A stretch of 36,952 bases of DNA from a virus. This document shows, in pieces, positions 20,076 to 36,249 of this stretch (position 1 is the stretch's first letter; every line of letters begins with the position of its first letter). The stretch spans positions 1 to 36,952 of the IMG/VR virus record IMGVR_UViG_3300005613_004208. One strand, written 5' to 3'. Position numbers and translations under genes: made by a program. Under the pieces are notes generated by a model. The model had not been told where the DNA came from, searched no databases, and worked only from the letters and a program-made list of their open reading frames with translations.

Positions 20076-21133
20076 ACCACCCCGCGATTAACGATCTTGC
20101 CACTTTCGTCTACGATCAAAAATCCTCTATATGTATATTTACGCAATCCTTTTTTGAGTTTAGGGATCCTGAATTTTTTACCCAGCGCAAGATATACAGA
20201 CCAGAGGGGGAAATTCAACCCAACGCAAATCGGCAGAAACATCCCCGCACCAAGCCGGGGATTTATCTCTGTTACTTTTGGAGTGCCATCCTCTGCTAGC
20301 TTGATGCTCAAGTTTATTGCATAGCTGAGCCTTAATTCTTCTGCCATCTGTTTTCCAATGTCAAGAATTGCCGGATGCTCTGCAAACGTCACTCGATCTG
20401 CAGCACTTAATATTACTTCGCTCTCCTCTCTCAATCCGCCAGCTATGAATTTATGAGTCGTGGGATCCAACAATAAATCAACTTCCCATTCCTGTCCCGG
20501 CAGGTATTCCTGTAGAAGGAGATCATTGAATTCCCTGCCTCTAAATATCTGCTTTAGAATCTGGGCATTGACGATTATCGAATACGGTTTCTCATTTCTA
20601 TATTGTTCGTAGAGATCGATCCTCTCATTGACTATCTTCAGTCCAATACTCCCATGACTTACGAATGGCTTTATTACAACGTTCTTTTCTGGATGACCCA
20701 ATCTTTTCATTTTTCTCTGCAAATCTTTCCAATCCGTCACTACTTCAAAATCCGGGATAAATGGTTGTCTCTCAAATCTCCTAGACATTAAATATCTATC
20801 ATTAGCAATCCGCAAGCCTTCAGAATCAGAAACACAGACAGCACAGCCTTTTTTTTGAAACTCTTCCTTATGCCGAGATAGTGCATCCAGCTCAAATGTA
20901 GCTAATGGTAAAATGACATCAATCTTTTCCTTTACTACAATCTCTAACATCCTTTCAATATAATAACGAGATCGTCCAGGGGAAACAGGATAGAATTTAT
21001 CGACCAGATATCTCGCAGGGATATCCCGCTGCATGTCCGTTCCGACAATCCTGATGTGAGAATCTTCTTTTAATCCCCGAATCAACGAAGGACCGCCAGG
21101 ACAGCCGACTGCCGTCAAGAGTACGTTAATCAA
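20072..21133 (-). CDS. ATP-grasp ligase, carbamoyl-phosphate-synthase-like
   Basis: About 353 residues. The N-terminal Rossmann-like part begins [13 protein letters not shown]. The ATP-grasp fold shows [10 protein letters not shown] (K160-G169, numbering from an upstream ATG at 21148), the [12 protein letters not shown] strand, and EINPRLGAG (294-302) with the Mg-binding Glu and Asn. I prefer the TTG at 21133: AAGGAG is 6 nt upstream and the fold begins directly there. The ATG at 21148 would extend 5 residues. Such enzymes in sugar clusters join an acyl or amino-acid group to a sugar amine; the substrate here is unknown. It overlaps both neighbours. Confidence 0.8.
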
Positions 21134-22016
21134 GTCGGTCTCCTTCATGCAATTTCAGCCTATCAAAAGCCTCTTTATCTCGAACCCTCTTTATCACTAA
21201 CAGATTATAACCTGTAGTTATTTTAATATGTCCATCCTTATCGACTGCCGAGATTTTCCCAGGGCGGAAATGAGGCTTATTATCTATTTCTACACTTGTC
21301 TCTTCAATGATGATTCTCTGACCTTTATAAAAACAGAACGCACCGGGATAGGGATAAACTAAAGCTTTAACTAAATTATAAATATCAATAGCATTTAATC
21401 GCCAGTTGATCCGCCCATCAGCCGGGGATCGTGACGGATAATATCGTGCAAGCCTATGATCTTGTTTCCTAGCTGTTAATTCCCCCCTCAGTAATGACTC
21501 CCAGCATCGATCTAATAATTCTGTAGTTTTTTCAAACATTCTTTTTCTTACCATTCCTATGGTGTCGTCGGGATATAATGGATATTCAATTATATCGATA
21601 ATGTCTCCAGAATCCAGAGTCTCTTCCATATAATGCAGGGTGACACCACTTTTTTTGCATCCCTTTATTATCACCCAATTCAGCATATTAGCACCACGCC
21701 ATTCGGGTAAAAGCGCGCCGTGAATATTTATTATCCCTAAGCGCACAACCTCCCTGGGAATAAGTGCTTTATAAGAACAGCTTAAAAGCACACAATCTCC
21801 ATTCTCTTTGATCTTCTCCGCTAATTCTTGTGCTGTAAATTTGCGACTTTCAATGATATCGGAATCAGGACAAATGCTTTTTATTTCATTGATTTTCTCT
21901 CTATCTGAATTCGGGGGGACCATGATAACGGGAACCTCATATTTCTTTCTCAACAAATATTTCAACACATGAATTCCGAATGAATTATGGCCGAAAAATA
22001 TCACTTTCTTTTTCAT
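21126..22016 (-). CDS. Methionyl-tRNA formyltransferase-like sugar N-formyltransferase
   Basis: A 296-residue enzyme. Residues 1-200 are the formyltransferase fold, with the catalytic triad N97, H99 (NIHG) and D135 (LDSGDI) and the loop LLPEWRGAN. Residues 205-296 (YNLVKALVYPYPGAF; RVRDKEAFDRL) form the C-terminal domain common to ArnA-type and Fmt proteins. Within a glycan cluster the likely role is transfer of formyl from 10-formyl-THF to an amino sugar. A tRNA role is much less likely in a phage. It overlaps the methyltransferase gene (ATGA). Confidence 0.8.
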   Translation of the reverse strand: MKKKVIFFGHNSFGIHVLKYLLRKKYEVPVIMVPPNSDREKINEIKSICPDSDIIESRKFTAQELAEKIKENGDCVLLSCSYKALIPREVVRLGIINIHGALLPEWRGANMLNWVIIKGCKKSGVTLHYMEETLDSGDIIDIIEYPLYPDDTIGMVRKRMFEKTTELLDRCWESLLRGELTARKQDHRLARYYPSRSPADGRINWRLNAIDIYNLVKALVYPYPGAFCFYKGQRIIIEETSVEIDNKPHFRPGKISAVDKDGHIKITTGYNLLVIKRVRDKEAFDRLKLHEGDRLD

Positions 22017-22612
22017 TTCAACTGCTTATTATAGAGATAAACCGTAAAATCATTCTTTTTATAATCACTCCTCAATATATGTCTATCGGTAAGGGGCTCA
22101 ATGATCCTCAAGATATCTTGATATTTCACATAATGAGCTGCGGGATTTCTGTTTTCTTCTCTGAATCTCAGGAAATTCACCGCCATACCAATTCTGGATA
22201 TTTTAAAGCATCTCTCTATTATAGCCTGAGTTCGATCGTCCCAATCTGCACACTCAAAATTGAAGAGTCCGGAGGCAATAACAAAATCAAACGCCTTATC
22301 TGCAAGAGTGCTTTCTTTTATATCTATACATGAGATGTTTAATTCTGGAGATTGCCTATTAACCTGCTTGACAATCCCAGGGTTAATATCGATGCCGACA
22401 TACTCTCCGAAAATTATCCTGCATTCTTTACAGAAATTGTAAAATTCCCCTAGTCCGCATCCAACATCTAAGATGCTCTTATTATTCAGGTCACCGATTT
22501 CAGAAAGAATACTAAACCTCAACCGCTGCACCTCTTTATCCCCCCAGCATTTATACGTAGATCCCTCGTTGTAATATCTGTCCATATGTTCGATCACTAT
22601 TTTATCATCCAT
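22013..22612 (-). CDS. SAM-dependent methyltransferase
   Basis: A 199-residue class I methyltransferase. Motif I is ILDVGCGLGEF (46-56), motif II includes YVGIDINPG, and FDFVIASGLFNF is the motif IV region. The acceptor is unknown; the cluster suggests a sugar. It overlaps the deacetylase by 16 bp and the formyltransferase by 4 bp. Confidence 0.8.
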   Translation of the reverse strand: MDDKIVIEHMDRYYNEGSTYKCWGDKEVQRLRFSILSEIGDLNNKSILDVGCGLGEFYNFCKECRIIFGEYVGIDINPGIVKQVNRQSPELNISCIDIKESTLADKAFDFVIASGLFNFECADWDDRTQAIIERCFKISRIGMAVNFLRFREENRNPAAHYVKYQDILRIIEPLTDRHILRSDYKKNDFTVYLYNKQLK

Positions 22613-23241
22613 CGTATTATATTGAATGCCTCGGCATATTCCGTCGTAATTTGGCTGCCCCTGACTTTTGCAAGTGCCTTGATATGGCTCGACTCAACTG
22701 GAATTCTTCCGAGTCGCTTTAATCTGAGCGCCTGCGATTTGTAACACTTCAAAGCATCCAGTTTTTTTTCAATATGCCTTTCTTTGAGCGAAATGAACGC
22801 CGTCGATTCAAAAGCGATGTTATTCCAGATTATCTCATAGCCTAGAATCGATGTATATTTGAATGCTCGGAAACCCTCTGCCGCAATAACGGAATGATCC
22901 TGATGTGTATCGTATTTCGAGGGAATGAAAACTAAATCAGGTTGAATTAGATCATTGAGAGTCACTAGATCTTCAAGTATCTCTTGTCTGAATTGCGTGA
23001 ATTTTCTGACAGGATATTTATAGATGAATAGATTTTTTGGGTCAATGCCAAGCACTTTCGATGCAGCCCGCGATTCATTCAGCAGTATATCTCTAGACAA
23101 TCCCTCCGGTACGGATTCTTCTGCAATCGAAAACGCTGTAATATAAACATCGTTACCCTTTTCGACATATCGGGCGATACTGCCACCGCAGCCCATTTCG
23201 GCATCATCGGTATGGGCGGATATGAAAAGGATTTTATTCAC
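22597..23241 (-). CDS. PIG-L family N-acetylglucosaminyl deacetylase
   Basis: A 214-residue PIG-L/LmbE protein. The zinc site is visible: AHTDDAE (H10, D12, D13; the family usually has HPDD) and THQDH (H113, D115, H116). The family removes acetyl groups from GlcNAc-type residues, creating a free amine. This would supply substrate for the neighbouring formyltransferase or the ATP-grasp enzyme. The start is a GTG that overlaps the upstream stop (TAGTG). Confidence 0.85.
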   Translation of the reverse strand: MNKILFISAHTDDAEMGCGGSIARYVEKGNDVYITAFSIAEESVPEGLSRDILLNESRAASKVLGIDPKNLFIYKYPVRKFTQFRQEILEDLVTLNDLIQPDLVFIPSKYDTHQDHSVIAAEGFRAFKYTSILGYEIIWNNIAFESTAFISLKERHIEKKLDALKCYKSQALRLKRLGRIPVESSHIKALAKVRGSQITTEYAEAFNIIRWMIK

Positions 23242-24176
23242 TATAATATCTCTAAAATTTCCCCAATCCTCTTGACTCGATTCTCAACACTGTGGTTTTC
23301 TCTTACAAATTTCATCCCTTCATAGCGAATATTTCTGTATGCCTCTGGATTATCAAGGCATTGGTTTATCTTATCGAATACGTTATCTCTATTTACAGAG
23401 ACATAATTTTTACCTGCTACAAATCCCGCCTCTCTGACATCAGCGGAATCCTCGGCCAGCAGAAGTGAGCCCGCTGCTGCTATTTCGTAATATTTTGCTA
23501 ACGGTGCACGTGACTTGGCAAGTCCTACAACAGAGCAGAGGTATTTATTTAGAACTCGTGCATAAGCATCGCCCATAACACCCTCTATTATTTTTGATGA
23601 TTCTCCACGTGGGGTCCCCCATCTTGGATGTCTCATAATATCGATTGACCGTGCTTTATTATCATCCATTAAAACCGTGCTTGCAATAATATGCCTGAGA
23701 TAATACCATTTTGATGTATTGCCACAAAGCAGGCACCGTAATAAGGGATGGTCATTAAACTCTAGTCCCACATATCGCTCATGAGGAGCAAAAAAGGTAG
23801 GGGAAACCTCTGCCTTATTTAGAAATTCTGGCCATTTTTTTCTGAATCCATCTCCTGCGCCACAGCTCAATAAATAATCGGCTCGCTTGAATGCTGGAAT
23901 CGCAAGATTATCGGTACGAGATAATGCGTGCAAACCATCGAGATAAAGGATTACCTTTACATTAGCTGGAAGGTCGGTTGATTCTTTAATCAAATCCTTG
24001 CCATGAACCCCTGCCTGTATTAGATATAGATCGGCGGCAATGCCTTTTAGCGAATCGGCGAAGATAAAATCAAATCCAAACTCATCGCAAAGTCGATTGA
24101 ACAGAACGGAAAAAGAGTCTGTATAGACTGTCCGTATCTGATGATACTTCATAGGCAAAACGATAACCTTTCTCAC
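23241..24176 (-). CDS. Glycosyltransferase, CgeB/GT4-like
   Basis: 311 residues from a GTG at 24176, which overlaps the previous stop (GTGA) and has GGAGG 8 nt upstream; a longer ATG reading would overlap the neighbour by 67 bp. The C-terminal half has the GT-B signature of CgeB-type enzymes: YYEIAAAGSLLLAEDSADVR (E in EIAAAG), then the standard repeated RYEGMKFVRENHS. The N-terminal half is Rossmann-like. Donor and acceptor are unknown. Confidence 0.75.
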   Translation of the reverse strand: MRKVIVLPMKYHQIRTVYTDSFSVLFNRLCDEFGFDFIFADSLKGIAADLYLIQAGVHGKDLIKESTDLPANVKVILYLDGLHALSRTDNLAIPAFKRADYLLSCGAGDGFRKKWPEFLNKAEVSPTFFAPHERYVGLEFNDHPLLRCLLCGNTSKWYYLRHIIASTVLMDDNKARSIDIMRHPRWGTPRGESSKIIEGVMGDAYARVLNKYLCSVVGLAKSRAPLAKYYEIAAAGSLLLAEDSADVREAGFVAGKNYVSVNRDNVFDKINQCLDNPEAYRNIRYEGMKFVRENHSVENRVKRIGEILEIL

Positions 24177-24694
24177 AATGGCCGCCTCCAAACTGTTACC
24201 ATCGCTTTTTCCGGCATTATAAAATCTTGTACCTTCCATCCGGCTTCTTTAAAATAGGGCTTAGCATAAGAATATTCCCAACGCTGTGCATCGTCTAAGA
24301 CAATGTATCCTCCCTGTTTTATATGCGGAGCTATACGTATGAGACTCAGGACTCGACCACGGCCATCAATGAAAGCAAGATCGAATGGCCCCTTGATTTT
24401 TGTCGGCCCCTGTGTCGGGTATGTGGGATCAAACCTGAGATCTACGTTTTTTAATTCCTTCTCTGCAAGGATGTGATAGACGAGATGATACCAGTCTCGA
24501 TTAGTCTCGAATGAGATGATACTTTTAACACGTTCTGCAAACCATACGGTAGAACTACCTGCTCCTGTTTCCAGCATTACTGTCTCCGGAGTAATGATTT
24601 TTTCAACAAATTTAAATGCTGTCATATTAATATGTGGGCGTCCATCAGTACTCATATATTTAGGCATTAGATTTTTAGGATCTTTTACCGACAT
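24173..24694 (-). CDS. Methyltransferase (class I, Methyltransf_24-like)
   Basis: A 173-residue protein from MSVKDPKN; GGAGG lies 7 nt upstream and this start overlaps the SDR gene end by 10 bp. Motif I is LETGAGSSTVWFAE, followed by ISFETN, and FDLAFIDGRG then GGYIVLDDAQR form the later motifs. This pattern is typical of the Methyltransf_24 group often found in capsule and LPS clusters. Acceptor unknown. Confidence 0.7.
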   Translation of the reverse strand: MSVKDPKNLMPKYMSTDGRPHINMTAFKFVEKIITPETVMLETGAGSSTVWFAERVKSIISFETNRDWYHLVYHILAEKELKNVDLRFDPTYPTQGPTKIKGPFDLAFIDGRGRVLSLIRIAPHIKQGGYIVLDDAQRWEYSYAKPYFKEAGWKVQDFIMPEKAMVTVWRRPL

Positions 24695-25602
24695 TCGTAA
24701 ACCTCCTTCATCCAATCGATTGTTTTTGGTATCCCCTCTTCCAGCGGCATTGTCGGATTGTGGCCAAGTTCTCCTCTGGCTTTTTTGATATCAGCTCGTT
24801 TATCCAAGACATTATGTTTGTCCTCCGATTGATAGTTAATTAATCCGTGATCCTTTCCTAGATAATCCAAGACGATAGCATTCGCTTCTTCTACACTACG
24901 AAATGCTTGACCTCCGATATTATATACTTCTCCAGGTGAAAATCTTTCGCATACAGTCGCTATTGTAGGCGTAGCATCGTCAATATACATAAATGTCCTG
25001 TGATAACCTAAATAAACTTGATATGGAATATCAAAAAGTGCTCTGTAACAGAATAGACAAATAACACTTCGATAGTTATGATAATATTCTCCAGGTCCAT
25101 AGGTATTAAAAAGCCGCAACCGTACACATTTATTTTTATATCGTTTCTCAAAATTCATTATTTGTATTTCATTGACCCATTTCGTAACAGCATAATCATT
25201 TTTTTGGATAATAGGCACCTGGAGTGGGAGATCTTCGGAGAGAAGAGATTCGTTGTCACCGCCATAGATTTCAGACGAGCTTGTGAATATCAATTTGAAT
25301 CCCTTTCGCTTCTGCCATTCAAGGATATTTCTCATACCGATTACATTCGTCTGCCACAAATTCTCGTAATATTCCTCACCATTAATCCGACCAAACTCTG
25401 CTGCTAGATGATAAACAACATCATAATCAGTCGCCTCGAATACACGCTCTAATTGCCTATATTTTGACACATCTGCTCTTATGTAATTCAGATCTCTATG
25501 ATGTGAGAGATCACACTGCCAGACTTCATGTCCTCTTTTTGATAACTCCTCTACAAGGGGAGTCCCGATCGTACCCTTGCTGCCTGTCACTAAGATTTTC
25601 AT
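24685..25602 (-). CDS. NAD-dependent nucleotide-sugar epimerase/dehydratase (SDR)
   Basis: A 305-residue extended SDR. NAD binding is TGSKGTIG (6-13). The catalytic set is Ser in FTSSSEIYGG (108-110), Y137 and K141 in DYAVTKW. NTYGPG (166-171) and the later FMYIDDA are typical of UDP-sugar epimerases and dehydratases. It acts on a nucleotide sugar, but which one cannot be read from sequence. ATGA overlap with the sulfotransferase gene. Confidence 0.85.
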   Translation of the reverse strand: MKILVTGSKGTIGTPLVEELSKRGHEVWQCDLSHHRDLNYIRADVSKYRQLERVFEATDYDVVYHLAAEFGRINGEEYYENLWQTNVIGMRNILEWQKRKGFKLIFTSSSEIYGGDNESLLSEDLPLQVPIIQKNDYAVTKWVNEIQIMNFEKRYKNKCVRLRLFNTYGPGEYYHNYRSVICLFCYRALFDIPYQVYLGYHRTFMYIDDATPTIATVCERFSPGEVYNIGGQAFRSVEEANAIVLDYLGKDHGLINYQSEDKHNVLDKRADIKKARGELGHNPTMPLEEGIPKTIDWMKEVYECR

Positions 25603-26318
25603 TCCATATCCTTCCAGTGCTCGGTTATTAGCGATGATGACAATAATTTCGCCAGCCGTTTATTATGTGATTTGTAATGTAGCCGCAGCCATCTCCGTAC
25701 CTCTTTACTTACCATCGGGGAGCCATATTTAGCTTTACGCCATGCGAGGGGGTCGTAATAAGTTTTTTCGAATATTGTTTTATGTGCAACCTCATGACTG
25801 ATGCCGGCACGCATTGCAACAAGCCTGGTGAGTGGAATCGGCTTATCAAAAAAATCCTCACTTGCAATTATGAGGAACCGATCTCGCTCAAAGAATTCAA
25901 ACCACCGTTCTAGATGCTTGGCATAATAGCCTTGTTTGACACAATGATGACTGCTGTCGATAAGTACTTCGGGATCGCTGCCGAATTTATCCTGATTCCA
26001 CCAATAATGGCTGACACAACGGGTGACTGGCTCTCGTAACAATACTACTAAATTAATATCAGGCAAGAGATCCTTAACTCGACTCGGTACATCTGGGCTT
26101 GCTAGATAGAATGGCGTTGCTTCAAATATCACCGCGTCTTTCGGAGCTTGCTTAAATTGTTCCCCATACCATGCGACACCCTTTTCAAAATGCTGATTAA
26201 AATAATGCAGTTCCTTTATCGGCTGCCCCCAAAGTCCTGGGATTTGACAAAGCATATGGAAAAGTGTACTGGTGCCTCCACGTGGAGTGCCGATTATCAG
26301 GAATTCAGGCAGTTTCAT
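25599..26318 (-). CDS. Carbohydrate sulfotransferase, heparan-sulfate-type
   Basis: A 239-residue PAPS-dependent sulfotransferase. The 5-prime phosphosulfate loop is IIGTPRGGTSTL (8-19). KELHYF (35-40) gives the KE pair found in heparan-sulfate sulfotransferases. FEATPFYL follows, then the 3-prime phosphate motif REPVTRCVSHY (R95, S103). This order is that of NDST/HS3ST-like enzymes. The product would be a sulfated glycan. PAPS must come from the host, since no PAPS synthase is in the window. Confidence 0.85.
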   Translation of the reverse strand: MKLPEFLIIGTPRGGTSTLFHMLCQIPGLWGQPIKELHYFNQHFEKGVAWYGEQFKQAPKDAVIFEATPFYLASPDVPSRVKDLLPDINLVVLLREPVTRCVSHYWWNQDKFGSDPEVLIDSSHHCVKQGYYAKHLERWFEFFERDRFLIIASEDFFDKPIPLTRLVAMRAGISHEVAHKTIFEKTYYDPLAWRKAKYGSPMVSKEVRRWLRLHYKSHNKRLAKLLSSSLITEHWKDME

Positions 26319-26692
26319 CAGAAGCCAATCTCCCCGGAAACGATCTTATTTTCAATTGTCTGCATTTCCTTTTTAAGCACTCGGCGGCAATCACCCCAAG
26401 TCATAATATTGGCTTTCTTTTTGCCAAATATCTGTGCTGCAAATAATCGGAATTTACCCTCTTCGATCTGATTGCATTTGAGGCAATAATAAACCGGCAG
26501 CTCTAGCCCACGATCTAGCATCTTGTTTACCTGCTCCCAGTTATGCCAATCACTACGACACATTGTCATAGCTCGCTCAAATGGTAGCTTGAAAATTGGA
26601 TGTCTCAATGGCACGCCGGTAACTATCATACCCTCTGGCACTGTGGATAAATCAAGATTTTTATTCCATGCTATTTTACTGAATTTTTCCAT
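26318..26692 (-). CDS. Small ParB-like protein in the glycan operon
   Basis: A 124-residue protein. The middle (HNWEQVNKMLDRGLELPVYY) and IEEGKFRLFAAQIFGKKKAN resemble the ParB/Srx core, in which a helix is followed by xxGxxRxxAAxxxG. Several members of that fold bind or hydrolyse nucleotides (CTP, ATP). Catalysis or regulation of a sugar step is possible but not shown. Overlaps both neighbours. Confidence 0.5.
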   Translation of the reverse strand: MEKFSKIAWNKNLDLSTVPEGMIVTGVPLRHPIFKLPFERAMTMCRSDWHNWEQVNKMLDRGLELPVYYCLKCNQIEEGKFRLFAAQIFGKKKANIMTWGDCRRVLKKEMQTIENKIVSGEIGF

Positions 26693-27507
26693 AACTCCTC
26701 CTCATTTAAAAGACATGCATTAATCCATGTCCATATACACTCTGGTGTGCAAGAATATAGAAACATTTTTTTAGCGGCCGCTCCAATAAATTTACACTCG
26801 GCACGATGCTTGCGACACCATTCAATTTTCTCTATTAAATCCGAATAATCATCAGCACACTCCACATAATGCAGCCCCGGCATCGGCTCTCTCCAATGAG
26901 GTAATCTTAGGTCTAAACGAGGTGATATCGTACAGGCGCCGAATGCCCAATATTGAAATTGTCCACGATCAAGCATATCATTACGCGCACCAGGAACGCA
27001 TACACTCACAAGACAGTTGTTGATTTTATTCCAAAACTCCTGTTTACTGGTTATTGTTTTGTCAAAATTCTCACCATACTCCTCTTCAAGCATTGACTGC
27101 ACCTTCTCACGCCGCTCTTTAGCACCTGCTCCAGGGGTTTGATTATTGAGTACCATATTGCTTTCCACTGTATATGTTATCTCCTGTTGAAGATGTTCAT
27201 ATTCATCCCAATCGTAAAAACTTATCGGTGTCAATGGGTATAAATGCGGTGTCTTGACATGTGTATATTTTGAATAATGGAATTTAAAAACAATGTCATA
27301 CTCATCTATATTTTCCGGTAGCCATGTATGATCGCCATAATCGATAAGTATTCGCTTGCCATCAGCCTGTGCCTCTAAATAATCATGTTCAAAATCTTTA
27401 TACTCTACTGTTATACCGACGGCCTTGGCCAGGTTAATAAAAAACAGATAATGTAAATCATAATATTTTTGTCCATGATTTTTTGGCACTACTATGCTTT
27501 TTATCAT
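26671..27507 (-). CDS. Putative glycosyltransferase (GT-B C-terminal type)
   Basis: A 278-residue protein. The C-terminal half (QFQYWAFGACTISPRLDLRL, GLHYVECADDYSDLIEKI) matches the donor-binding region of CgeB- or CAP10-like glycosyltransferases, where an aromatic-rich helix precedes xGACxxSP and an acidic loop. The N-terminal half is Rossmann-like with DYGDHTWLPENIDEYD. No family can be fixed. ATGA overlap with the GT2 gene. Confidence 0.5.
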   Translation of the reverse strand: MIKSIVVPKNHGQKYYDLHYLFFINLAKAVGITVEYKDFEHDYLEAQADGKRILIDYGDHTWLPENIDEYDIVFKFHYSKYTHVKTPHLYPLTPISFYDWDEYEHLQQEITYTVESNMVLNNQTPGAGAKERREKVQSMLEEEYGENFDKTITSKQEFWNKINNCLVSVCVPGARNDMLDRGQFQYWAFGACTISPRLDLRLPHWREPMPGLHYVECADDYSDLIEKIEWCRKHRAECKFIGAAAKKMFLYSCTPECIWTWINACLLNEEELWKNSVK

Positions 27508-28169
27508 TTATCCGCCCATCTTCCTTCTGTAACTAGATCGAATGTCGTACCCCAAATCAGGCCTTTGGTTCTACGTTGTGACATTATCCCCCTATCACGG
27601 AGTTTGGTTTTTTGTACTAATGCATTTGTTTTATCTCTTTTATGATGGTGCAAGAGCGTTGACGATTCGACGTAAAAAAATTTGTTGTTTACTCTTGCAT
27701 ACCGCCCGATCTCAAAATCACAGCTAAAATGTATGAAATCTGGACAGAATGTATGCCTGCGGGGAAAGTGGTTAATGAATTTCCGACCCATCAGTCCGAT
27801 AGCCCCCTGCACGGCTGTTGGCTTCTGTTTCATGCCGATGAGTCCGTCACCGTCTGGAAAATGCACATCCATTGCTTTCACAAGCTCATCTATCATTGTG
27901 GGGGGAAATTCCAGATCATCTACTGCATATAAAACAGCATCACCCTGCGCATATTGTAATCCACGATTAATTGAATACGGCCAATCTCGACGCGTACTGT
28001 TATAAATAATAGCTACTGGCCATTGAGTTACAAGGGGCAATAATTTTGGATCATTGTCAATAACAACAAAGATAGTCAGGTCTTTGTGCGTATTATTCAA
28101 TAAGCTCTTAACGTTTTTCTCCAATGCAGCAGGTCGCCCGATTGTAGGGATAATCACATCAACATGCAT
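27504..28169 (-). CDS. Family 2-like glycosyltransferase, copy B
   Basis: A 221-residue GT-A protein. The nucleotide-binding start is VDVIIPTIGRPAAL, followed by TIFVVIDND, and the metal site is VDDLEF (83-88). It is a clear paralogue of the next gene upstream: the same RRDW at 60-63, DDLEF and FIxHFPRR-type features occur at the same positions. The start overlaps the upstream stop (TAATG). Confidence 0.75.
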   Translation of the reverse strand: MHVDVIIPTIGRPAALEKNVKSLLNNTHKDLTIFVVIDNDPKLLPLVTQWPVAIIYNSTRRDWPYSINRGLQYAQGDAVLYAVDDLEFPPTMIDELVKAMDVHFPDGDGLIGMKQKPTAVQGAIGLMGRKFINHFPRRHTFCPDFIHFSCDFEIGRYARVNNKFFYVESSTLLHHHKRDKTNALVQKTKLRDRGIMSQRRTKGLIWGTTFDLVTEGRWADK

Positions 28170-28822
28170 TATGACTCCTTTCGCAGTAATTTAAAGTCCC
28201 GGCCCCATAATAATCCCGCCTCTCTGCGTATGTCAATATAATGAAAATCCTGAATCTCCATCGGTTTTGCCGTACGATAGGTAGTGTCTTGTAACCGGTG
28301 GTGCTTGACCCGTGCTTCATCACAGATATGGAGTCGATTGATACTATGCGCAAATCGCCCCAGTTCAGAGTCACTTCCATAATGCACATAATCCGGACAG
28401 AAAACAGCTCGATCGGGAAATCGTTCAATGAACCGATGTCCTAATAACCCAAATGCTGTACTACAGCCGACGACACTTTGTTTTATTGCTATGAGTCCAT
28501 CTGTATTAGGCATCTTTTCCTCTAATCGATTAACGGCAATCTCAATACAGCGTGGATCGAACTCAAGGTCATCACTTGCATAAATAACAGCCCCCTCTCG
28601 TTTATATCGCAAGGCACGATTCATACTCCAAACCCAATCTCGACGCTCCTCATTAAATAGCACCTCAGCCGATAGACTCTTAGCTAATTGCAATAATTCT
28701 TGATTGCCATCAACGATAATTAATACCGATACATCTTTGTACGTATTGGAATGGATGGATTCTACGGTTTTTTGTAATAATGACCAGCGGTCAAGCGTTG
28801 GGATTACAACCGTTACGTGCAT
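28169..28822 (-). CDS. Family 2-like glycosyltransferase, copy A
   Basis: 217 residues from the ATG at 28822, which overlaps the previous stop (TAATG) and has GAGG upstream. GT-A features are VTVVIPTLDR at the start and SDDLEF at 83-88. It shares position-by-position motifs with copy B (RRDW at 60-63, YASDDLEF against YAVDDLEF, FIERFPDRAVFCPDYVHY against FINHFPRRHTFCPDFIHF). A tandem duplication followed by divergence, probably with different acceptors. Confidence 0.75.
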   Translation of the reverse strand: MHVTVVIPTLDRWSLLQKTVESIHSNTYKDVSVLIIVDGNQELLQLAKSLSAEVLFNEERRDWVWSMNRALRYKREGAVIYASDDLEFDPRCIEIAVNRLEEKMPNTDGLIAIKQSVVGCSTAFGLLGHRFIERFPDRAVFCPDYVHYGSDSELGRFAHSINRLHICDEARVKHHRLQDTTYRTAKPMEIQDFHYIDIRREAGLLWGRDFKLLRKES

Positions 28823-29694
28823 TAAATTACCTCGTGATATACTTTTGTATACTTCTTCACACATTCAATGGGATGCCATTCTTGCAATACCCACAACCTA
28901 GACATTTCACCTATCCTCTCTATCGTCTTCGGATTATCAATTAGCCATAATAATTGTTGCTCTAATGTCTTTAGATTTGCGTATGCGAATGGTTCTTTAC
29001 GTATTTTATTTAAAATGACACAGCCGAAACAGGCTCCCTCGAGTGATGTACGATGCCAGTTACCAGTAACTACATCATCAATTATGATATGACTCCGAGC
29101 CTTCATCTTCAAATTCTGCTCATATGGCATCCCCTCTATCCAGACAATTTCTACATCACGTTTCGATGCCACGGAATCAAGGATATGCCTGACTTCATGA
29201 TAGCCCTTGCTGTTCACCATACTTGTCGGGAAGCGAGTTGTTGGTGCAAATGCGATAGAGATTTTCGTATTCTTTTTTACCGGATAATATTCATCTGGAT
29301 CAATCATATTCGGAAGCGACGGCAGACTGTATTCTTTCTCTTGTAGTGGCTGGCTAATCGTGTAGCATTTATCGGCAAATTTCATCAATTGCTGCCAATT
29401 CCCCAGCCTAGGCAGTGAATGAAATTGTGCTATCGTAGGAGGCTTCTTATTCATCCCTACCAAAGATGGAGTCAAATAATTGTGTATATGCCAGATATCG
29501 GCCCCTTTTAAACGGTCCATAGCGATTCCAGTACTTGAAAAATAAAGCAAATCATGCGGGAATACTCGTCCATCACGATATTTAATTGTCTCATTTATGA
29601 GCGTAATATCGTGGGCTGTATATTTCTGTAATGCCTTGAAAAGCTCCCACGGAGCACCAGCTAGAGCTGTTTTACTGTAGATTACGATTTTGAT
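28822..29694 (-). CDS. GT4-like glycosyltransferase without a normal start codon
   Basis: The coding frame runs back to an AUC at 29694 with no ATG, GTG or TTG before residue 48 (ATG at 29550). The extra N-terminus (KIVIYSKTALAGAPWELFKA) is a typical GT-B first strand and helix, so it is almost surely coding. GGAGGG lies 5-6 nt before the AUC. In the wrong frame an ATG is followed by AAATC; adding one A would give ATG AAA ATC. Either AUC is used, or a base is missing (mutation or assembly error). The remainder (ADIWHIHNYL, SLEGACFGCVIL) is GT4-like. About 290 residues. Confidence 0.7.
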   Translation of the reverse strand: MKIVIYSKTALAGAPWELFKALQKYTAHDITLINETIKYRDGRVFPHDLLYFSSTGIAMDRLKGADIWHIHNYLTPSLVGMNKKPPTIAQFHSLPRLGNWQQLMKFADKCYTISQPLQEKEYSLPSLPNMIDPDEYYPVKKNTKISIAFAPTTRFPTSMVNSKGYHEVRHILDSVASKRDVEIVWIEGMPYEQNLKMKARSHIIIDDVVTGNWHRTSLEGACFGCVILNKIRKEPFAYANLKTLEQQLLWLIDNPKTIERIGEMSRLWVLQEWHPIECVKKYTKVYHEVI

Positions 29695-30029
29695 TTCATC
29701 CCTCCAATCGTCTCTCGTTCTATGTCTGGATCTTCAAGGAAAACTTGATAAATCTCTATACAGACCGTATCCTCAAGTGCTTCGAATTTGTGAAAAAATC
29801 CTGGGGAGACGGCAGTGCATTGCCCTGGTCTGATCACAGTTATATCTTCATCATTTCCATGCCAGATTGTTATTTTTAACAATCCAGAGATTACATAAAA
29901 AAGATTATATTTATGTTTGTGAGAATGTTTAGAACAATATCCACCTTTTTTTATATCCAAGTGATGGGCTGATACTAATGCGTTTCTAAAAAATTCTGTC
30001 GTTTCTCCCCAAATTTTACCGGCTCTCAA
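29682..30029 (-). CDS. Cupin-fold protein
   Basis: A 115-residue cupin. Motif 1 is GGYCSKHSHKHKYNLFYVISG-like, with H35, H37 and H39; the usual Glu is not at its expected place. Motif 2 is PGQCTAVSPGFFHKF with a conserved His at about residue 80. Small cupins in sugar clusters act as epimerases or ketoisomerases, but the altered motif makes activity uncertain. It overlaps the DUF115 gene (ATGA) and its tail overlaps the GT4 frame. Confidence 0.7.
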   Translation of the reverse strand: MRAGKIWGETTEFFRNALVSAHHLDIKKGGYCSKHSHKHKYNLFYVISGLLKITIWHGNDEDITVIRPGQCTAVSPGFFHKFEALEDTVCIEIYQVFLEDPDIERETIGGMKSKS

Positions 30030-30739
30030 TGTAATACCCTCTCAGGTGACATTTTCTCAAAGCACTCAAGTGCTGAGTCCGGATTCAAATTCACGACCCG
30101 GAATTCGGTCGGAGCCAATATCTTGGCAGCAATTTCGAAGCGTGACGCCCATTTCTCTGCATCCTTTCTTTTCTGTCCCATTACATGCCCCTCGTGCCAG
30201 TGGCTTCTGCCGTTTTCATGCTTACAGTCGAATCCGAGCAGATAGATAGGATTGGCCCCTAAGCATACAGCTAGATTAAGAGCCGCATAACCGGAGTTAT
30301 CTCCGTGACAGATGCCCTCTTGCATTGATGATAATGAAAAGTTTCTCAATCCGTAGAAATAGCTAGTTGCAACATGAACGATGAAGAAGCCCTTGGGAAG
30401 ACCTATCGTATATGTGCAGAGCCAAACTTTATAGGCTTTTGAGGCCATAAATTTCGCCTTTGTCTCTGCCCCATCTTTGACTAGTGTATATTTGTCATTC
30501 ATCACCCAGTTCAAAAATCGTGTATCCATCGAGAAGATTATAGTCGGTTCAAATCGCTCAAAAGCTCGATTGACACCAATCGTCCTATAGCCTTTCAACA
30601 TTGTCCAGTCAAAGCCCTTGAGACTAGGCCCTCCTCCGACGATAAAACATGGCTTATTTTTCCATGCTCCATCCGGCAACACCTCCCATAGCCAGCGATT
30701 TCGAAACCGCTCGGATGCAAAAAGAGTTGGTTTCTTCAC
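30026..30739 (-). CDS. DUF115 / Maf-like glycosyltransferase-related protein
   Basis: A 237-residue protein with CFIVGGGPSLKGFD near residue 31, NRAFERFEP and FSMDTR, then DNSGYAALNLAVCLGANPI with YLLGFD. This is the DUF115 signature shared with motility-associated Maf transferases and sialyltransferase-like phage proteins. Maf proteins transfer nine-carbon sugars to flagellin; here the target could be a virion protein. It is the first gene of the glycan cluster and its ATG overlaps the adaptor stop (ATGA). Confidence 0.7.
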   Translation of the reverse strand: MKKPTLFASERFRNRWLWEVLPDGAWKNKPCFIVGGGPSLKGFDWTMLKGYRTIGVNRAFERFEPTIIFSMDTRFLNWVMNDKYTLVKDGAETKAKFMASKAYKVWLCTYTIGLPKGFFIVHVATSYFYGLRNFSLSSMQEGICHGDNSGYAALNLAVCLGANPIYLLGFDCKHENGRSHWHEGHVMGQKRKDAEKWASRFEIAAKILAPTEFRVVNLNPDSALECFEKMSPERVLH

Positions 30740-31380
30740 GATGCTAGAATTACCGGCTTCCTCTGCTTCAGATAGTGGCGCAGAATTTTGTCAACCGATG
30801 GGATTCCGGTATAAATACCATCTTTTGCATATCCGGCAGCACCTAGTTTATAGCTGTAATCACCAATTTTCTCACTCACATATCCACCCTTTGTCTCGAT
30901 CGTCCCATCATTTACCGCATCTGTAAGCCAGATGATTGCCTGTTTGATCGGTTCTGGCACCTCCTCACCATAGGTGCCGACGATTCGGATGTTATTATAG
31001 CCACGTGGGAAAAGTCCTAAATTAGCACTTTCACCAGACCGATAGGCAAGCTCTGACCAGTAGCCAGCAGCAGCAACGGCAGTCGCGGAGGCACAGAGGT
31101 CGATATAGATAGAATTCTCATCATAAGCATACCAGCTCGTATCAAGCTCGATGCCACAAATATAGACATTTGTAACGGTCACAATATCGGCTCTCAGGGG
31201 AAGCGTCAAGCGATTTTTGCCATTCCCATTGATCTCTATATCGAATGCCTTGACATAGAAATGTCGACCCAGGATCTTTTCAATTAATTGTTCGGCAAAA
31301 GCTATTGCCGCAATTTTATCGGCATCCGTTGTGCCGGACGGCCATGAGGTTACATTTTCAGGGTTTATGTAATTTCCGAT
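30736..31380 (-). CDS. Head-tail adaptor (connector) with AUC in the start position
   Basis: 214 residues when read from the AUC at 31378-31380. The frame is open back to a TGA. No ATG, GTG or TTG precedes an internal TTG at 31209, which would drop the first 57 residues. These residues (NYINPENVTSWPSGTTDADK, then AAIAFAEQLIEKILGRHFYV) are the conserved start of gp6-like adaptors, so they are coding. A perfect AGGAGG sits 6 nt before the AUC. The later part (KQAIIWLTDAVNDG; SVDKILRHY) fits the helical connector. Overlaps the DUF115 gene at its end. Confidence 0.7.
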   Translation of the reverse strand: MGNYINPENVTSWPSGTTDADKIAAIAFAEQLIEKILGRHFYVKAFDIEINGNGKNRLTLPLRADIVTVTNVYICGIELDTSWYAYDENSIYIDLCASATAVAAAGYWSELAYRSGESANLGLFPRGYNNIRIVGTYGEEVPEPIKQAIIWLTDAVNDGTIETKGGYVSEKIGDYSYKLGAAGYAKDGIYTGIPSVDKILRHYLKQRKPVILAS

Positions 31381-31513: not shown

Positions 31514-32269
31514 TTATTCGATCACCCTTTTCTGTGCACATTTGATATAGTCAACCCATAAGTGTTTTGCAGCGGCTTCATCATTTCTTAATCCAAAACC
31601 GATGTGCATTTCTACATCATCAGGGATATTTGTAGTCCAGCTTCCGGTAGCAAGACAATATTCATCGCTATCACGGAATACGAACCAATGTACCGTCCCG
31701 GCACCATCGTAATGAAATCCAAGTCTTATCCAGGTCAAATCTCCCAGATCCTCTGTCGTATCTACCGAGGTGGCCGTTCCATTTTTTGCCGTAGCAAAGA
31801 GAATGTCATCATCAGCATCCTCAATATAGAACACCATGTAGTCATCGGGATTTGTGAACCATACGCCGCCAGTTACAAGGCCAAACCAGAATGAGGCTGC
31901 GTCTGGGTCATCGATCTTGAATCGTATTTCTGCATAGAGTGGATAATTGTCAACAAGTTTCCAGCATTCACAGCCGTAAACGAGCTGATCCATATCACCG
32001 CTGGCACTATCGTTTGTGACTAGAAGCACTCCGTTGACCATATCGGTACATGCCTCTGTCGCATCACCTTGTCCTGCTTCGGTCGTAGTTATTGTCCAGC
32101 AATCACTGTCGAAGCAACAGAAGTCTTCTTCAAATCTGTGTGCGCCGATGATGTCGAACATCCTCCACCAGTCCCACTTATCGTGATTTATGTGGTAATT
32201 CAGAAATTCAACATCTCTGATAAATAGCTCTTTTTGATGATCGTTTATGTCAGCATGTGGAAATTCCAT
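31514..32269 (-). CDS. LamG/concanavalin-like protein, possible capsid decoration
   Basis: A 251-residue protein. Residues 1-50 are helical; residues 50-251 form a jelly-roll-like beta sandwich (WTITTTEAG at the start, EIRFKIDDPDAASFWFGLVT in the middle, WIRLGFHYDGAGTVHWFVFR later). It is Cys-rich (CCFDSDC, GCECW, others), so disulfides or a metal are possible. It is two genes downstream of the capsid gene and before a terminator, so it should be made at high level. A decoration protein or glycan-binding lectin is inferred. SD GGAGG. Confidence 0.6.
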   Translation of the reverse strand: MEFPHADINDHQKELFIRDVEFLNYHINHDKWDWWRMFDIIGAHRFEEDFCCFDSDCWTITTTEAGQGDATEACTDMVNGVLLVTNDSASGDMDQLVYGCECWKLVDNYPLYAEIRFKIDDPDAASFWFGLVTGGVWFTNPDDYMVFYIEDADDDILFATAKNGTATSVDTTEDLGDLTWIRLGFHYDGAGTVHWFVFRDSDEYCLATGSWTTNIPDDVEMHIGFGLRNDEAAAKHLWVDYIKCAQKRVIE

Positions 32270-32573
32270 CTTTTTCCTCCAATCTTTTGATTAGCAAGGA
32301 CTTCTTCATCGTGAAGTTGCCCTTTATCCCTACCTGTGCGGCCATCTTCCTCAAAGCGTTTATGCCGAAGTGTGAATAATCGATTCGAGGCTTAGCAACC
32401 ACCTTCTCTGAAACCACTACATCGACATATGGCCATTTTGAGAGTTCGTCTAATGCCTGACGATTTTTAATATCATCATGAATTCGATTACACTCGAGAT
32501 AGATATTACCCATACAGGTCGGAAAATATTGTGATCTTCCGTAATTTATTACTGTCGCTTTGAGTCCTGGCAT
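32250..32573 (-). CDS. Small head-region protein with Rho_N/SAP-like C-terminus
   Basis: A 107-residue protein. The C-terminal 35 residues (INALRKMAAQVGIKGNFTMK then LIKRLEE) match the Rho N-terminal/SAP-like fold often seen on small phage proteins next to capsid genes. The N-terminal part is beta-rich. Possibly binds packaged DNA; function not established. It is 1 bp downstream of the capsid gene. Confidence 0.6.
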   Translation of the reverse strand: MPGLKATVINYGRSQYFPTCMGNIYLECNRIHDDIKNRQALDELSKWPYVDVVVSEKVVAKPRIDYSHFGINALRKMAAQVGIKGNFTMKKSLLIKRLEEKDGISTC

Positions 32574-32574
32574 T

Positions 32575-33711
32575 TTAGCATCTATGTGTCAAGCATCTCA
32601 GGAATACGATCGCATTTACGTTTTCGATTGCATAATCCATGCGGATGGTGTAGAAGAAATAGGTTGCATCATCAGGCGGCACCCTCCAAGTCTCTACAGT
32701 GATTTTGCGCTGAAGTCCTATAATGAGATTGCCTTTCCGTGTGAGCAGTACATCTGTGTAGTTTCCACTATCAACTAATCCGTAGGTACCGTCGGCATCT
32801 TGACCAAGGGTTGTTGGCATGAGCGGCACATCGATAATAGGTACTTTTCCATACTGGGGAGGAACTTTGCCTGAGAAGATGTCGTCTCCAAGAGTTGTAG
32901 GCCTGGCACTGAGTGCTTCTAGATAATCCTGTGTCACTAGGTCGCTATTGAGAAAGACAAAGTTACCGAGTCCACCTGTTTTGTATTTTGATGGCATATT
33001 CTTGATCATCTGATGATACTTGAATTCCCAATTGTACGGTGCATTTGTATCCTGTTCGGCAATACTGCCAGCAAATTTGAAATCGGCATCCGCGTCTTCT
33101 GCCTCATCATCACAGCTCGCTCCACTCTCACAGAGACATGCATCCTTGATGTCGGCAGCCCCACAGACCTCATTGTAATAATCCTCTCCGTCCGCACTGT
33201 GATTGATCTGGTAACGCCAACCATCGAATTTACTGCGCAGATTATCAGCTGCAAAGCTATTTAGACCATGTGTGTCTGCCATGTATGCTACATCTTCAAG
33301 CTGGTTTGCAATCTTTGCTGTCACTAGTTTTATGAGATGAGCCTTGAATGTTGCCTCATTCTCTACGTGTTTAATGTCCTCGATGTCATCATCGAAGATC
33401 GGGAATGCACCTCTTGCCTTCTCCGTGCTCAGGCGGATGCGGTTCTGTGTCCACTGCTTTTTGTATTTCGACTCATTGAAGGCTTCGGCAGGATATAAGA
33501 AGTCTTCGTCACCAAAACCAATGTGTCGGATATACTTCTGTGGCTGACCCATGCGCTCGATTCTGGCATAGTTTTTCATCACCGATTCATCAATGAGGCA
33601 GTCGAGGAATTTATCAGCTTCTTGCGGTGGCAGTTCTATTTCCGGCATCGAAATCAGATTGTAGTCTTTATTGACTTTGAACCTACTAAGCAGGTCTTTT
33701 GATGTTTTCAT
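32575..33711 (-). CDS. Major capsid protein (HK97-like)
   Basis: A 378-residue protein. An N-terminal helical arm, then YPAEAFNESKYKKQW and IRLSTEKARGAFPIFDDDIE, followed by a long helix (FKAHLIKLVTAKIANQLEDV) and C-terminal beta region (GNLIIGLQRKITVETW). These match HK97-fold capsids of E-loop, spine helix and A domain type. A Cys-rich acidic insertion at 183-200 (C183, C192, C194, C200) is unusual. It follows the protease and scaffold genes, as expected. Confidence 0.8.
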   Translation of the reverse strand: MKTSKDLLSRFKVNKDYNLISMPEIELPPQEADKFLDCLIDESVMKNYARIERMGQPQKYIRHIGFGDEDFLYPAEAFNESKYKKQWTQNRIRLSTEKARGAFPIFDDDIEDIKHVENEATFKAHLIKLVTAKIANQLEDVAYMADTHGLNSFAADNLRSKFDGWRYQINHSADGEDYYNEVCGAADIKDACLCESGASCDDEAEDADADFKFAGSIAEQDTNAPYNWEFKYHQMIKNMPSKYKTGGLGNFVFLNSDLVTQDYLEALSARPTTLGDDIFSGKVPPQYGKVPIIDVPLMPTTLGQDADGTYGLVDSGNYTDVLLTRKGNLIIGLQRKITVETWRVPPDDATYFFYTIRMDYAIENVNAIVFLRCLTHRC

Positions 33712-33733: not shown

Positions 33734-34495
33734 TTATCCGAAAAATTGAATCGACGGAAAATCGTCCTCTACTTTATCATCCTTTTTCACATCATCTTTG
33801 TCCTGGTCTTTGAGTTTCTGCGTTTTCCCTTTCTCCTTCAGCAATGGTAGAATCGGTTCAAGCAGCTCTTCCATCGTATCTTTGATGAGTTTTTTGGTAT
33901 CCTCTTCACTTTTCTCATCTGTCTCTTTTTTGACTCTCTCGGCCTCTTCTTTCTCCATTCGAGTTAGCTTATCCAGCTTATCGAGTGTTTCATTCGATAA
34001 TTTTTCTTCTTCATCCTCTTTCTTTTTCTTCTTCTCTGTTTTTGATTCCAACATCTTTGCACATATATCTCGGATCCGTTCAATCTGCGCTCTCGTCGCC
34101 TTAGACAGCGATGCGCCAACTTTCTCGATATTTTCGATGAGATATTTTGAGTAATCCTCTTCCGTCAATTCGGTTTTTTCTACAACTCGGCCACAACTTG
34201 CCTGTTTAAGCAGTGTAAGCTGAGCTTTTAGAAATTCCGGAGGAAAAGAATCACTGTAAACTGCGATGGCATTCATAGCGCCGGTAATTGCCTCGACCTC
34301 TTCATCGGACAACTTCTTGGCCTTTGCAATGTCTTCCTCAGCCAACCCTTCTTCCCCGAACAAACCCTTTAGTAATTCTAGGAACTTCTCCATTTTCTTC
34401 TCCTTCTTGATATAGAATTTTTTACGGTTTGCTCCAGATTCGACAACAGAGATTTCCTCTATGTCGATGTCTTTCAGCTTTCTTGGTTTTTTCAT
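33734..34495 (-). CDS. Scaffold-like protein
   Basis: A 253-residue, very charged helical protein (KKKKEDEEEK; EEAERVKKE) typical of scaffolds. The first 25 residues (DIDIEEISVVESGANRKKFY) resemble the peptide at the end of XkdF-type proteases (ISxVxxGANxKxF), suggesting that an ancestral protease-scaffold polypeptide was split. It lies between the protease and the capsid gene. Confidence 0.7.
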   Translation of the reverse strand: MKKPRKLKDIDIEEISVVESGANRKKFYIKKEKKMEKFLELLKGLFGEEGLAEEDIAKAKKLSDEEVEAITGAMNAIAVYSDSFPPEFLKAQLTLLKQASCGRVVEKTELTEEDYSKYLIENIEKVGASLSKATRAQIERIRDICAKMLESKTEKKKKKEDEEEKLSNETLDKLDKLTRMEKEEAERVKKETDEKSEEDTKKLIKDTMEELLEPILPLLKEKGKTQKLKDQDKDDVKKDDKVEDDFPSIQFFG

Positions 34496-34663: not shown

Positions 34664-34693
34664 AGAATAAAATGAAATATCGTTCAATGTCAA
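34664..34693 (-). promoter_or_regulatory. Putative late promoter upstream of the scaffold gene
   Basis: A perfect -35 TTGACA (34688-34693) overlaps the stop codon of the protease gene. The -10 is weaker (TATTCT at 34664-34669, 18-bp spacer; TTTATT at 16 bp is an alternative). It would make a leader of about 160 nt that holds the structured element. Confidence 0.45.
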
Positions 34694-36249
34694 GAATTAT
34701 TTTCACTTGCTGCCGATCCCCCCATTGAAAAACCATTGATCTTACCTTTCTCAATATCATCCCACACAGCCTTATCCGTCACTTTCAACATCAACCACCA
34801 GGCACCTTTTTTGACCGTCTGGCCGCCACGCTGTATATCATGCTCTGGCTGAAAACATTCCATTATCGGGAAGGTGTGAGTCGCCCCTTTGTGTCCGATC
34901 TTGATGCGCTTGGAGTTCTTTGCATATTTCTCCATAAAATCATACATTGCCTTCTGTATTTCCTCAGCATCAGCATAATCGCCCTGCGTATCCACCGCAT
35001 CCGGCTCATAGACAATCCCACCTACGATCTGCTTCCTTTTATTCTGTTTATAGAATTTAAAAAACCAATCGGATTTTATCACGCCTTTCTGACGTAATTT
35101 GGCACGCTCTTCTTTCCACGCCTTTTCATCATCCCATTCATTTTTATTATACCAGCTTTTTGGCATATTGCATACATTGCCAACTGGTTGTTCATCGCCA
35201 CATGTCAGACAGCGTGGGTGTCCATTTGGATGCGTATATTTAGCTGCTCTAAATTGATGTGGTTTTTCAGCTTCCGGTCGTTTGGCATTCTCTTTTATTC
35301 GCGCCGTTTCTTCATCACATTCCTTTCGTTGGGCTGGTGAAAGACCCTTGGTTACATCAATGGCGGCCGATTTCTGTCCCGGCCCTGGACGTTCTTTTCT
35401 CCGCATCTTCCCCCCACATTTCGGGCATTCAAGATCTTTACAATGCTCCTCTGTCTCTATCGTATGGCCACATTCCAAACACTCACAATTAAACACCTCT
35501 TTCTTTGCCGGTTTCTTAAACGCCTGTTCTGCGATCCATTTCTTTGCCTCCGCCATTGTCCATTTGTTTTTATCGAAAAGATACGTCCTGATACGCTTTT
35601 CTTTGCCACAATAAAGAGCTTTAATTCCTTTTTCCGTTGATATGTCAATCGTTGCCGTTATTTCACACACAGAACCAATCGGGATACGGACATATTGCTC
35701 CGTCACTTCCGGTTTTGATATTTCGATACGTCGCAAAGACTCTTTCGGTCTCAATACTAGGTCATAGAGAGGGATTTCTGTTTTTCTCAGCGAATCCGGG
35801 TCGGGATCGAAATTAACTTCTTTGCATATCTCACCACTGAGTACATCCTTCAATATTGACTCTATCAGATCATCATCAGCATCCTTTACCATTACATTAA
35901 CACTCTCGGCATCAACAGGGCTATCAACAAATGGCCCACTTATCGTTACACAGTCTTTGATGACAACCTTCTCACCAAGACTCTTGATATCTAGCCCAAA
36001 CATCGCCTTACGGAATACTGATTGATCCAATGCCGTCCCTCGTGACACTTTCAAACCACGACCATGAAGCTCTTTTAGTAGTAGTCGATATCTTTCGAGC
36101 AGGCCAGACCGTGTGATTGTGTCTGCTTTTTGTGTGGCTTTATTTTCAAAGTTCTTGCCATAGAACTGCATGAAACGCAACCGTAGTTCATAGAGTTTCT
36201 CTTTCGGAACCTTGGTAAGCGCCTCTGCCGTTATATCTTCTATCCTCAT
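34690..36249 (-). CDS. XkdF-type prohead protease with zinc-ribbon insert
   Basis: A 519-residue protein. Residues about 396-512 are an XkdF-like domain (QIVGGIVYEPDAVDTQGDY; later WWLMLKV and GFSMGG), a predicted capsid-assembly protease. Before it come two Cys clusters: CLECGH with CPKCGG (C257-C278) and CLTCGDEQ to C360, plus a KWTMAEAKKWI motif found next to such proteases. Residues 1-230 are an unassigned domain. It precedes the scaffold and capsid genes. Confidence 0.75.
   Translation of the reverse strand: MRIEDITAEALTKVPKEKLYELRLRFMQFYGKNFENKATQKADTITRSGLLERYRLLLKELHGRGLKVSRGTALDQSVFRKAMFGLDIKSLGEKVVIKDCVTISGPFVDSPVDAESVNVMVKDADDDLIESILKDVLSGEICKEVNFDPDPDSLRKTEIPLYDLVLRPKESLRRIEISKPEVTEQYVRIPIGSVCEITATIDISTEKGIKALYCGKEKRIRTYLFDKNKWTMAEAKKWIAEQAFKKPAKKEVFNCECLECGHTIETEEHCKDLECPKCGGKMRRKERPGPGQKSAAIDVTKGLSPAQRKECDEETARIKENAKRPEAEKPHQFRAAKYTHPNGHPRCLTCGDEQPVGNVCNMPKSWYNKNEWDDEKAWKEERAKLRQKGVIKSDWFFKFYKQNKRKQIVGGIVYEPDAVDTQGDYADAEEIQKAMYDFMEKYAKNSKRIKIGHKGATHTFPIMECFQPEHDIQRGGQTVKKGAWWLMLKVTDKAVWDDIEKGKINGFSMGGSAASENNS

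Follow-up and report, generated by a model that had tools for sequence, protein, structure and literature searches.

Capsid decoration proteins of phages are hard to recognise from sequence. Two such proteins, T5 pb10 and T4 Hoc, are described as displayed on the capsid surface, and we know of no covalent lock for either of them. For decoration that is linked to the capsid by disulfides, the Agrobacterium phage Milano is a solved precedent; the available text of PMC10491603 describes its jellyroll-like minor capsid protein, gp10, disulfide-bonded to the major capsid protein (MCP) gp9, and the linking proteins gp16 and gp128. In the same text, the extra resistance of Milano to sonication and heat is lost with dithiothreitol, and phage 7-7-1 (PMC12796354) is called closely related to Milano. 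A full-text literature search for LamG-type phage capsid decoration found none, and nothing closer than Milano emerged from the literature surveyed, as judged from titles and the starts of abstracts. Here we analyze a gene for a LamG-like protein located two genes after the MCP gene in the IMG/VR virus record IMGVR_UViG_3300005613_004208, from an uncultured group of tailed phages. The term "the window" refers to the whole stretch of DNA analyzed, which comprises the 36,952 bases of this record.

The head genes of the window are on the minus strand, as are all features of the window for which coordinates are given below, in the order XkdF-type protease, a Lys/Glu-rich probable scaffold protein, MCP, a protein of 107 residues, the LamG-like protein, a head-tail adaptor and a sugar cluster, beyond which lie the tail genes including the tape measure gene. 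The MCP has 378 residues (32575..33711) and is matched over residues 24-371 by the profile of PHROG 1623 (E 5.4e-43), a family of virion structural proteins; the named-phage matches in tblastn are annotated as major capsid protein or XkdG. The LamG/concanavalin-A-like (ConA-like) protein has 251 residues (31514..32269). Judging from the sequence comparisons presented below, we suggest, with a probability of roughly 0.6, that it is a decoration protein located on the surface of the capsid.

Covariation between the capsid and the LamG-like protein

The analysis was based on 87 non-redundant capsid sequences, window included, collected from scans of viral and genome contigs, to which six more were added later. 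A quick tree separated the 87 sequences into two groups, one with 62 members (hereafter the clade) and a sister clade with 25. Two loci were excluded from the trees, one in which the capsid is split over two frames (L021) and one with a broken frame (L067). Rows with identical C-terminal 230 residues were merged, and LamG frames shorter than 230 residues were excluded from the LamG set. One of the relatives sits in a Desulfobacterales assembly, and a wider search of host genomes for further copies matched, in the order to which genome G001 belongs, a single genome of 389, namely G001 itself.

The evidence that carries the proposal is a pair of residues, one in each protein. Capsid residue 154 (33250..33252) and LamG residue 108 (31946..31948) are Ala and Asn in the window and Cys in some of its relatives. 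Both cysteines are present in 10 of the 49 paired loci, window included, neither is present in 38, and LamG C108 occurs alone in one. Three additional loci (L058, L105 and L146) have C154 in the capsid and no separate LamG row to score. Six of seven independent contrasts agree and none opposes the association on the capsid tree, for which we used a careful tree with the trait columns removed, and the result is the same on the LamG tree. A Pagel-type comparison of dependent and independent evolution gave a likelihood ratio of 35.3 for four extra parameters. Five other pairs between capsid and LamG reached 4.2 to 13.3, and a pair between capsid and adaptor 18.0.

The pair was spotted among many cysteine pairs, and we therefore give weight to the ranking scan and the simulations rather than to the sign test. 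When all capsid and LamG residue features were compared, irrespective of amino acid and with at least five changes, C154/C108 ranked first of 141,680 (phi 0.94; runner-up 0.82), and it was still first of 432,963 when at least three changes were required, at which level three others also reached a phi of at least 0.9. With independent evolution simulated on the tree, a phi as high was obtained in 42 of 200,000 runs, and at least 10 co-occurrences with at most one discordant locus in 1 of 200,000. The covariation is naturally read as a disulfide between the two proteins, and thus as a contact between the LamG-like protein and the capsid. More generally, when two genes gain and lose one cysteine each in concert, a contact in the virion can be predicted without the need for a structure.

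Residues 45-251 of the LamG-like protein were modelled as a ConA-like jelly roll, with an overall predicted local distance difference test score (pLDDT) of 75.7 and a block of at least 80 over residues 81-240. Among the 50 VIA-align matches listed, lichenases, ERGIC-53 and legume lectins have Z scores of 14.5-16.8, and SO2946 (2a5z) has 15.2, while a sequence search yielded no convincing solved relative. The best Pfam match is PF22237, SO2946-like_C (E 4.6e-5), at 23.9 bits and thus below the gathering cut-off of 27; this family was matched at E 0.001 or better by 24 of 44 LamG relatives, and no PHROG family was matched at that level by any of the 44. The motif E-x-D-x-(x)-E is the catalytic motif of GH16 enzymes. 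It was found in none of the 54 non-redundant LamG proteins, and a catalytic role of this type was rejected. The N-terminal arm, residues 1-48 (32126..32269), has no confident fold, with a pLDDT below 50 over residues 1-38 and 41-49, and yet contains conserved residues: P4, D19, N24, H26 and K31, together with R45, are at least 90% identical in 54 relatives.

Our hypothesis is that the jelly roll sits outside the head against the capsid protein, such that its loop at residues ~99-110 adjoins capsid residue 154. The conserved N-terminal ~48 residues would probably function as a docking arm, and a C154-C108 disulfide would lock the contact in some relatives. Once displayed, the jelly roll would be expected to bind glycans weakly. 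The first-pass annotation, made from the sequence of the window, had likewise suggested a decoration lectin on the head. The covariation of C154 and C108 and the occurrence of other modules in the slot of relatives lend support to that placement, whereas the cysteines of the capsid insertion, which it had put forward as a possible joint, do not appear to serve as such.

Several points weigh against the hypothesis. The window itself lacks the covarying pair (A154, N108), so docking in the window would presumably be non-covalent, and one relative (L063) combines C108 with D154. The sign test for C154/C108 alone gives a p-value of 0.031. A rescan of the viral contigs with a deeper alignment recovered just two new distinct LamG proteins, which leaves no independent set on which the pair could be replicated. 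The template modelling scores in Foldseek are modest, 0.41-0.53 by query length against solved chains among the 50 matches listed. The AlphaFold model of the capsid, from an alignment of 17 sequences, is poor (pLDDT 43.6, predicted template modelling score 0.39), and for this reason no capsid cysteine could be placed in a structure. Furthermore, an N-terminal motif of the proteins that occupy the slot in the sister clade showed no match to the LamG N-termini above that of shuffled sequence, so that a shared docking arm is not supported. In the closest relative, L002, the first two thirds of the LamG gene are gone, by deletion or as an assembly chimera. Finally, the location in the virion is suggested by covariation and not by proteomics.

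The gene between those for the MCP and the LamG-like protein (32250..32573) encodes 107 residues with a weakly Rho_N-like C-terminus (PF07498 E 0.09, below cut-off), and a homolog is present in 59 of the 62 clade loci. In L002 (L002:1906-2460), which has 89% capsid identity to the window, this protein is fused in frame to residues ~169-251 of the LamG-like protein; the loss of the part before ~169 indicates either that the LamG-like protein may be dispensable or that L002 is chimeric. In two other loci (L023:3829-5780 and L114:1712-3636), LamG directly follows the capsid and no 107-residue protein was found between them.

The cysteines of the capsid and of its neighbors

As claimed in the first-pass annotation, four capsid cysteines (C183, C192, C194 and C200) fall within 18 residues of an acidic insertion (33112..33165). 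The stretch 183-216 contains 10 acidic and 2 basic residues of 34, and when the positions of the seven capsid cysteines (38, 183, 192, 194, 200, 373 and 378) were shuffled, at least four fell within 18 residues in 890 of 100,000 draws, which makes the cluster unusual. The annotation had named a lack of conservation in homologs as a refutation of its idea, and this applies to some of the residues. C192 is widespread (61 of 87 capsids), C183 is Cys in 18 of the 87, and C194/C200 (33112-33132) are both present in 30 and both absent in 57. A different insertion, of ~50 residues and of the type EPTWPT..GGTVVDGTVTW, is located at window residues ~190-210 in 11 of the 25 sister capsids (L124, L133-L135, L137-L143), with no Pfam match for those of L137 and L143. 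That the two insertions share a site suggests a surface loop.

Two sets of capsid cysteines have a distribution that would be expected if they were internal to the shell. C192, C373, H376 and C378, the last residue of the protein (the latter three at 32578..32595), occur together in 60 of the 62 clade capsids, with the broken frames of L021 and L067 as the exceptions, and the three cysteines are found in none of the 25 sister capsids. These residues mark one capsid clade and probably stabilize the shell. Likewise, the presence of C38 (33598..33600) is tied to that of C183: both are present in 18, neither in 66, and none is discordant among the 84 scorable capsids, after three gapped rows of the 87 had been set aside. 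We consider it fairly probable that the capsid cysteines form disulfides within the shell, or a metal site of C192, C373, H376 and C378, and take no part in docking of the LamG-like protein; this explanation is compatible with a decoration role based on C154 and C108. In Milano, the MCP C-terminal cysteines form an intrachain C186-C456 and an MCP-MCP C302-C455 disulfide (PMC10491603, Table 2). On the other hand, the pattern comes from a single clade with few independent changes on the tree, two each for C192, C38 and C183, which makes C38/C183 weak as an independent test. Moreover, L222 has none of the three signature cysteines and is apparently placed inside the clade: on a quick tree, the smallest group that includes every C192 row has one extra tip, which, as indicated by its nearest neighbors, is L222. 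Nor can distances be taken from the capsid model, no solved structure with convincing sequence similarity to the capsid was found, and no relationship to the Milano MCP was detected.

The cysteines at 194 and 200 may also touch the head-tail adaptor, encoded at 30736..31209 (phrog_442 E 7.4e-9) in an open frame that reaches upstream to 31392. Their presence covaries with that of adaptor C39 (31093-31095), with a phi of 0.84 and ranks 3 and 4 of 193,192, and two of three contrasts agree in 178 of 200 pairings. This would be a possible neck-capsid link. The neck protein gp14 of Milano is bonded to the MCP according to the available text of PMC10491603, and the link is therefore plausible but thin.

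The first-pass annotation also described the LamG-like protein as rich in cysteine, which we could confirm. It has eight (51, 52, 57, 74, 100, 102, 205 and 244) in 251 residues, or 3.2%, as compared to 1.49% (148 of 9,936) over the 34 listed window proteins. The tightest cluster, three in seven residues, was matched by 6,940 of 100,000 shuffles and is less unusual than that of the capsid. Since six proteins of the sugar cluster also have 2.0-3.5% cysteine, this composition alone is not particular to the virion. The four cysteines C51, C74, C100 and C102 occur together almost without exception, and C52 and C57 always do so (31964..32119 for all six), which is most simply explained by disulfides or a metal site within the LamG-like protein. 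The mean cysteine content of the capsids is 1.67% in the clade (61 rows) and 1.05% in the sister clade (18 rows). Enrichment as a trait of the entire virion was rejected, as the means do not differ for the 107-residue protein (1.00% in 56 clade rows, 1.09% in 14 sister rows) or the adaptor (1.69% in 38 and 1.71% in 6).

The slot after the capsid gene, the sugar cluster and other readings

A LamG gene follows the capsid gene in 56 of the 62 clade loci, and five of the other six contigs end within 431 bases. In the sixth, L111, the adaptor immediately follows the 107-residue protein, LamG is found neither in the slot nor elsewhere in its 5.5-kb record, and the capsid cysteines are kept. The 25 sister loci, to the extent that they were retrieved, lacked LamG; in eight of them, the sequence stops within 1,700 bases after the capsid. 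Among the six loci added later, L230 and L231 contain LamG and have capsids without any of the insertion or signature cysteines, and L222, without C192, C373 and C378, has no LamG. Hence, the capsid cysteines can be present without LamG, and LamG without the capsid cysteines.

Other proteins occupy this slot in the sister clade. A motif search recovered 19 from the 25 loci, most with N-termini similar to LDRDMFQPLGRLLQEAF.xG and two (L122 and L131) with a loose fit. A profile of the motif, built without L122, also found L121, L130 and L142, as well as some of the later loci, for example L225 and L226. The 18 proteins with enough of the C-terminus fall into six blastp groups; two of the eight tested had fibre-type Pfam matches, both under the cut-off, and two of nine matched PHROG tail families. 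The capsids of L225 and L230 are 0.14 changes per column apart and their slot proteins differ, that of L230 being LamG. Among named relatives, just one gene, of 423 bases, separates the capsid from an HK97-gp10-like gene in Methanobacterium virus Drs3, and in SIO-2 and Rhizobium phage L338C there are short genes followed by one of 624 or 639 bases. With Drs3 as the one clear example, the slot may be accessory. In L222, the slot is occupied, at ~400-1040 bases after the capsid, by an open reading frame (ORF) that by eye resembles a homing endonuclease.

These patterns lead us to a broader hypothesis, which is tentative and to which we give somewhat less than even odds. The region after the capsid gene may be an exchangeable display slot that takes up adhesin-like modules unrelated to one another, and the ConA-like protein that occupies it in one clade could be disulfide-locked to the putatively HK97-type shell. 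The lock would have been gained and lost several times independently, with capsid and lectin co-evolving as a covalently fastened head adhesin.

The sugar cluster (20072..30739, assigned with Pfam) spans ~11 kb between the head and tail genes. It starts with MptE-like and cupin genes, followed by genes for glycosyltransferases, sulfotransferase, epimerase, PIG-L deacetylase, methyltransferase, formyltransferase and ATP-grasp proteins; the best PHROG of the MptE-like gene, 4603, is labelled alpha-2,3-sialyltransferase. The first-pass annotation had inferred glycan-coated capsids from this cluster and a lectin on the head. The cluster is real, and the coating is where the idea falters; that a lectin-like head protein and the sugar enzymes cooperate in this manner seems to us rather unlikely. 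Capsid glycosylation has been reported in mycobacteriophages, and the sugar genes are located inside the structural gene order. All 41 clade loci that extend more than 2,200 bases beyond the capsid contain the MptE-like gene. It was not found in any of the 25 sister loci, of which 13 extend for at least 4.6 kb. Similarly, a PF01973 search detected it in all but one of 14 clade records and in none of 10 others; in the record missed, L069, a query with the window protein recovered the gene. GT2 genes were identified in 11 of the 14 clade records and 4 of the 10 others, namely the two that carry LamG alongside a sister-type capsid (L230 and L232) and two of the eight without LamG. However, MptE-like occurs without LamG in L111 and L222, the latter of which keeps MptE-like, cupin and glycosyltransferase-like genes, and with the window query was not found in L230 or L232, both with LamG, although the records may be fragments. 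No link leads from the sugar enzymes to any capsid substrate. The MptE-like gene is thus a clade trait, GT2 leans toward LamG on small numbers, and because MptE-like and LamG separate in both directions, glycan-coated capsids remain speculation.

We also considered the possibility that the LamG-like protein functions in the tail or in adsorption and that its gene simply happens to adjoin that of the capsid. The fold is known in tail-type phage proteins, and the viral structure matches include proteins named for tail repeat or tropism determinant, but the gene is positioned between those for the capsid and the head-tail adaptor and its product covaries with the capsid, and we regard such a role as unlikely. 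The joint proposed in the first-pass annotation, a disulfide or metal link between the cysteines of the acidic insertion and those of the LamG-like protein, is most improbable: both proteins are rich in cysteine and LamG C52/C57 is confined to loci that have C194/C200 in the capsid (13 loci with both and none with C52/C57 alone, of 49; likelihood ratio 13.3), but C194/C200 is found without C52/C57 in 9 of the 49 loci and does not track the LamG cysteines, one of three independent contrasts agrees, the pair ranks 533rd in the residue-pair scan, few contrasts agree for C194/C200 with C51 or C52 or for C38 with C51, and the insertion cysteines are present in L111, where the slot lacks LamG, whereas L230 and L231 show the reverse.

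Upstream of the capsid gene, the XkdF-type prohead protease (34690..36249) matches PF14550 (E 1e-26), and the N-terminus of the Lys/Glu-rich protein (33734..34495) matches phrog_3017 (E 6e-7); its probable role as scaffold is suggested by position and composition. The protease ORF has 519 residues in the window and more than 1,100 in L003:710-4033 and L005:511-3858, where the shared parts are far apart, and the version in L146 appears by eye to contain methylase-like sequence.

Comparison with known systems

The closest named sequence family of the LamG domain is that of SO2946 of Shewanella oneidensis (2a5z, PF22237), which is also among the fold matches. The LamG-like protein of the window differs in being under the Pfam cut-off for that family, and the PDB title of 2a5z is that of a protein of unknown function. 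The protein would share a position on the capsid surface with T5 pb10 and T4 Hoc, the latter of which is described as having Ig-type domains rather than a ConA-like fold.

Milano differs in several respects. Its gp10 is encoded by 414 bases, as compared to a ConA-like candidate of ~250 residues here, and its bonds have been seen in maps, whereas those proposed here are predicted from sequences. The covarying pair is found in some relatives (10 of the 49 paired loci) and not in the window. A comparison of the capsid alignment (A3) with gp9 alone in hhalign gave a probability of 0.1, so that the MCPs are not detectably related, although their folds may still agree. In both systems, the decoration protein, gp10 in Milano and putatively the LamG-like protein here, is encoded near the MCP, directly next to it in Milano, and the mechanism that we propose would work in a similar manner. 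If our interpretation is correct, it would assign a head role to a family in which none of 44 members has a PHROG match at E 0.001 or better, and would represent a second case of disulfide-fastened capsid decoration, on an MCP with no detectable relationship to that of Milano.

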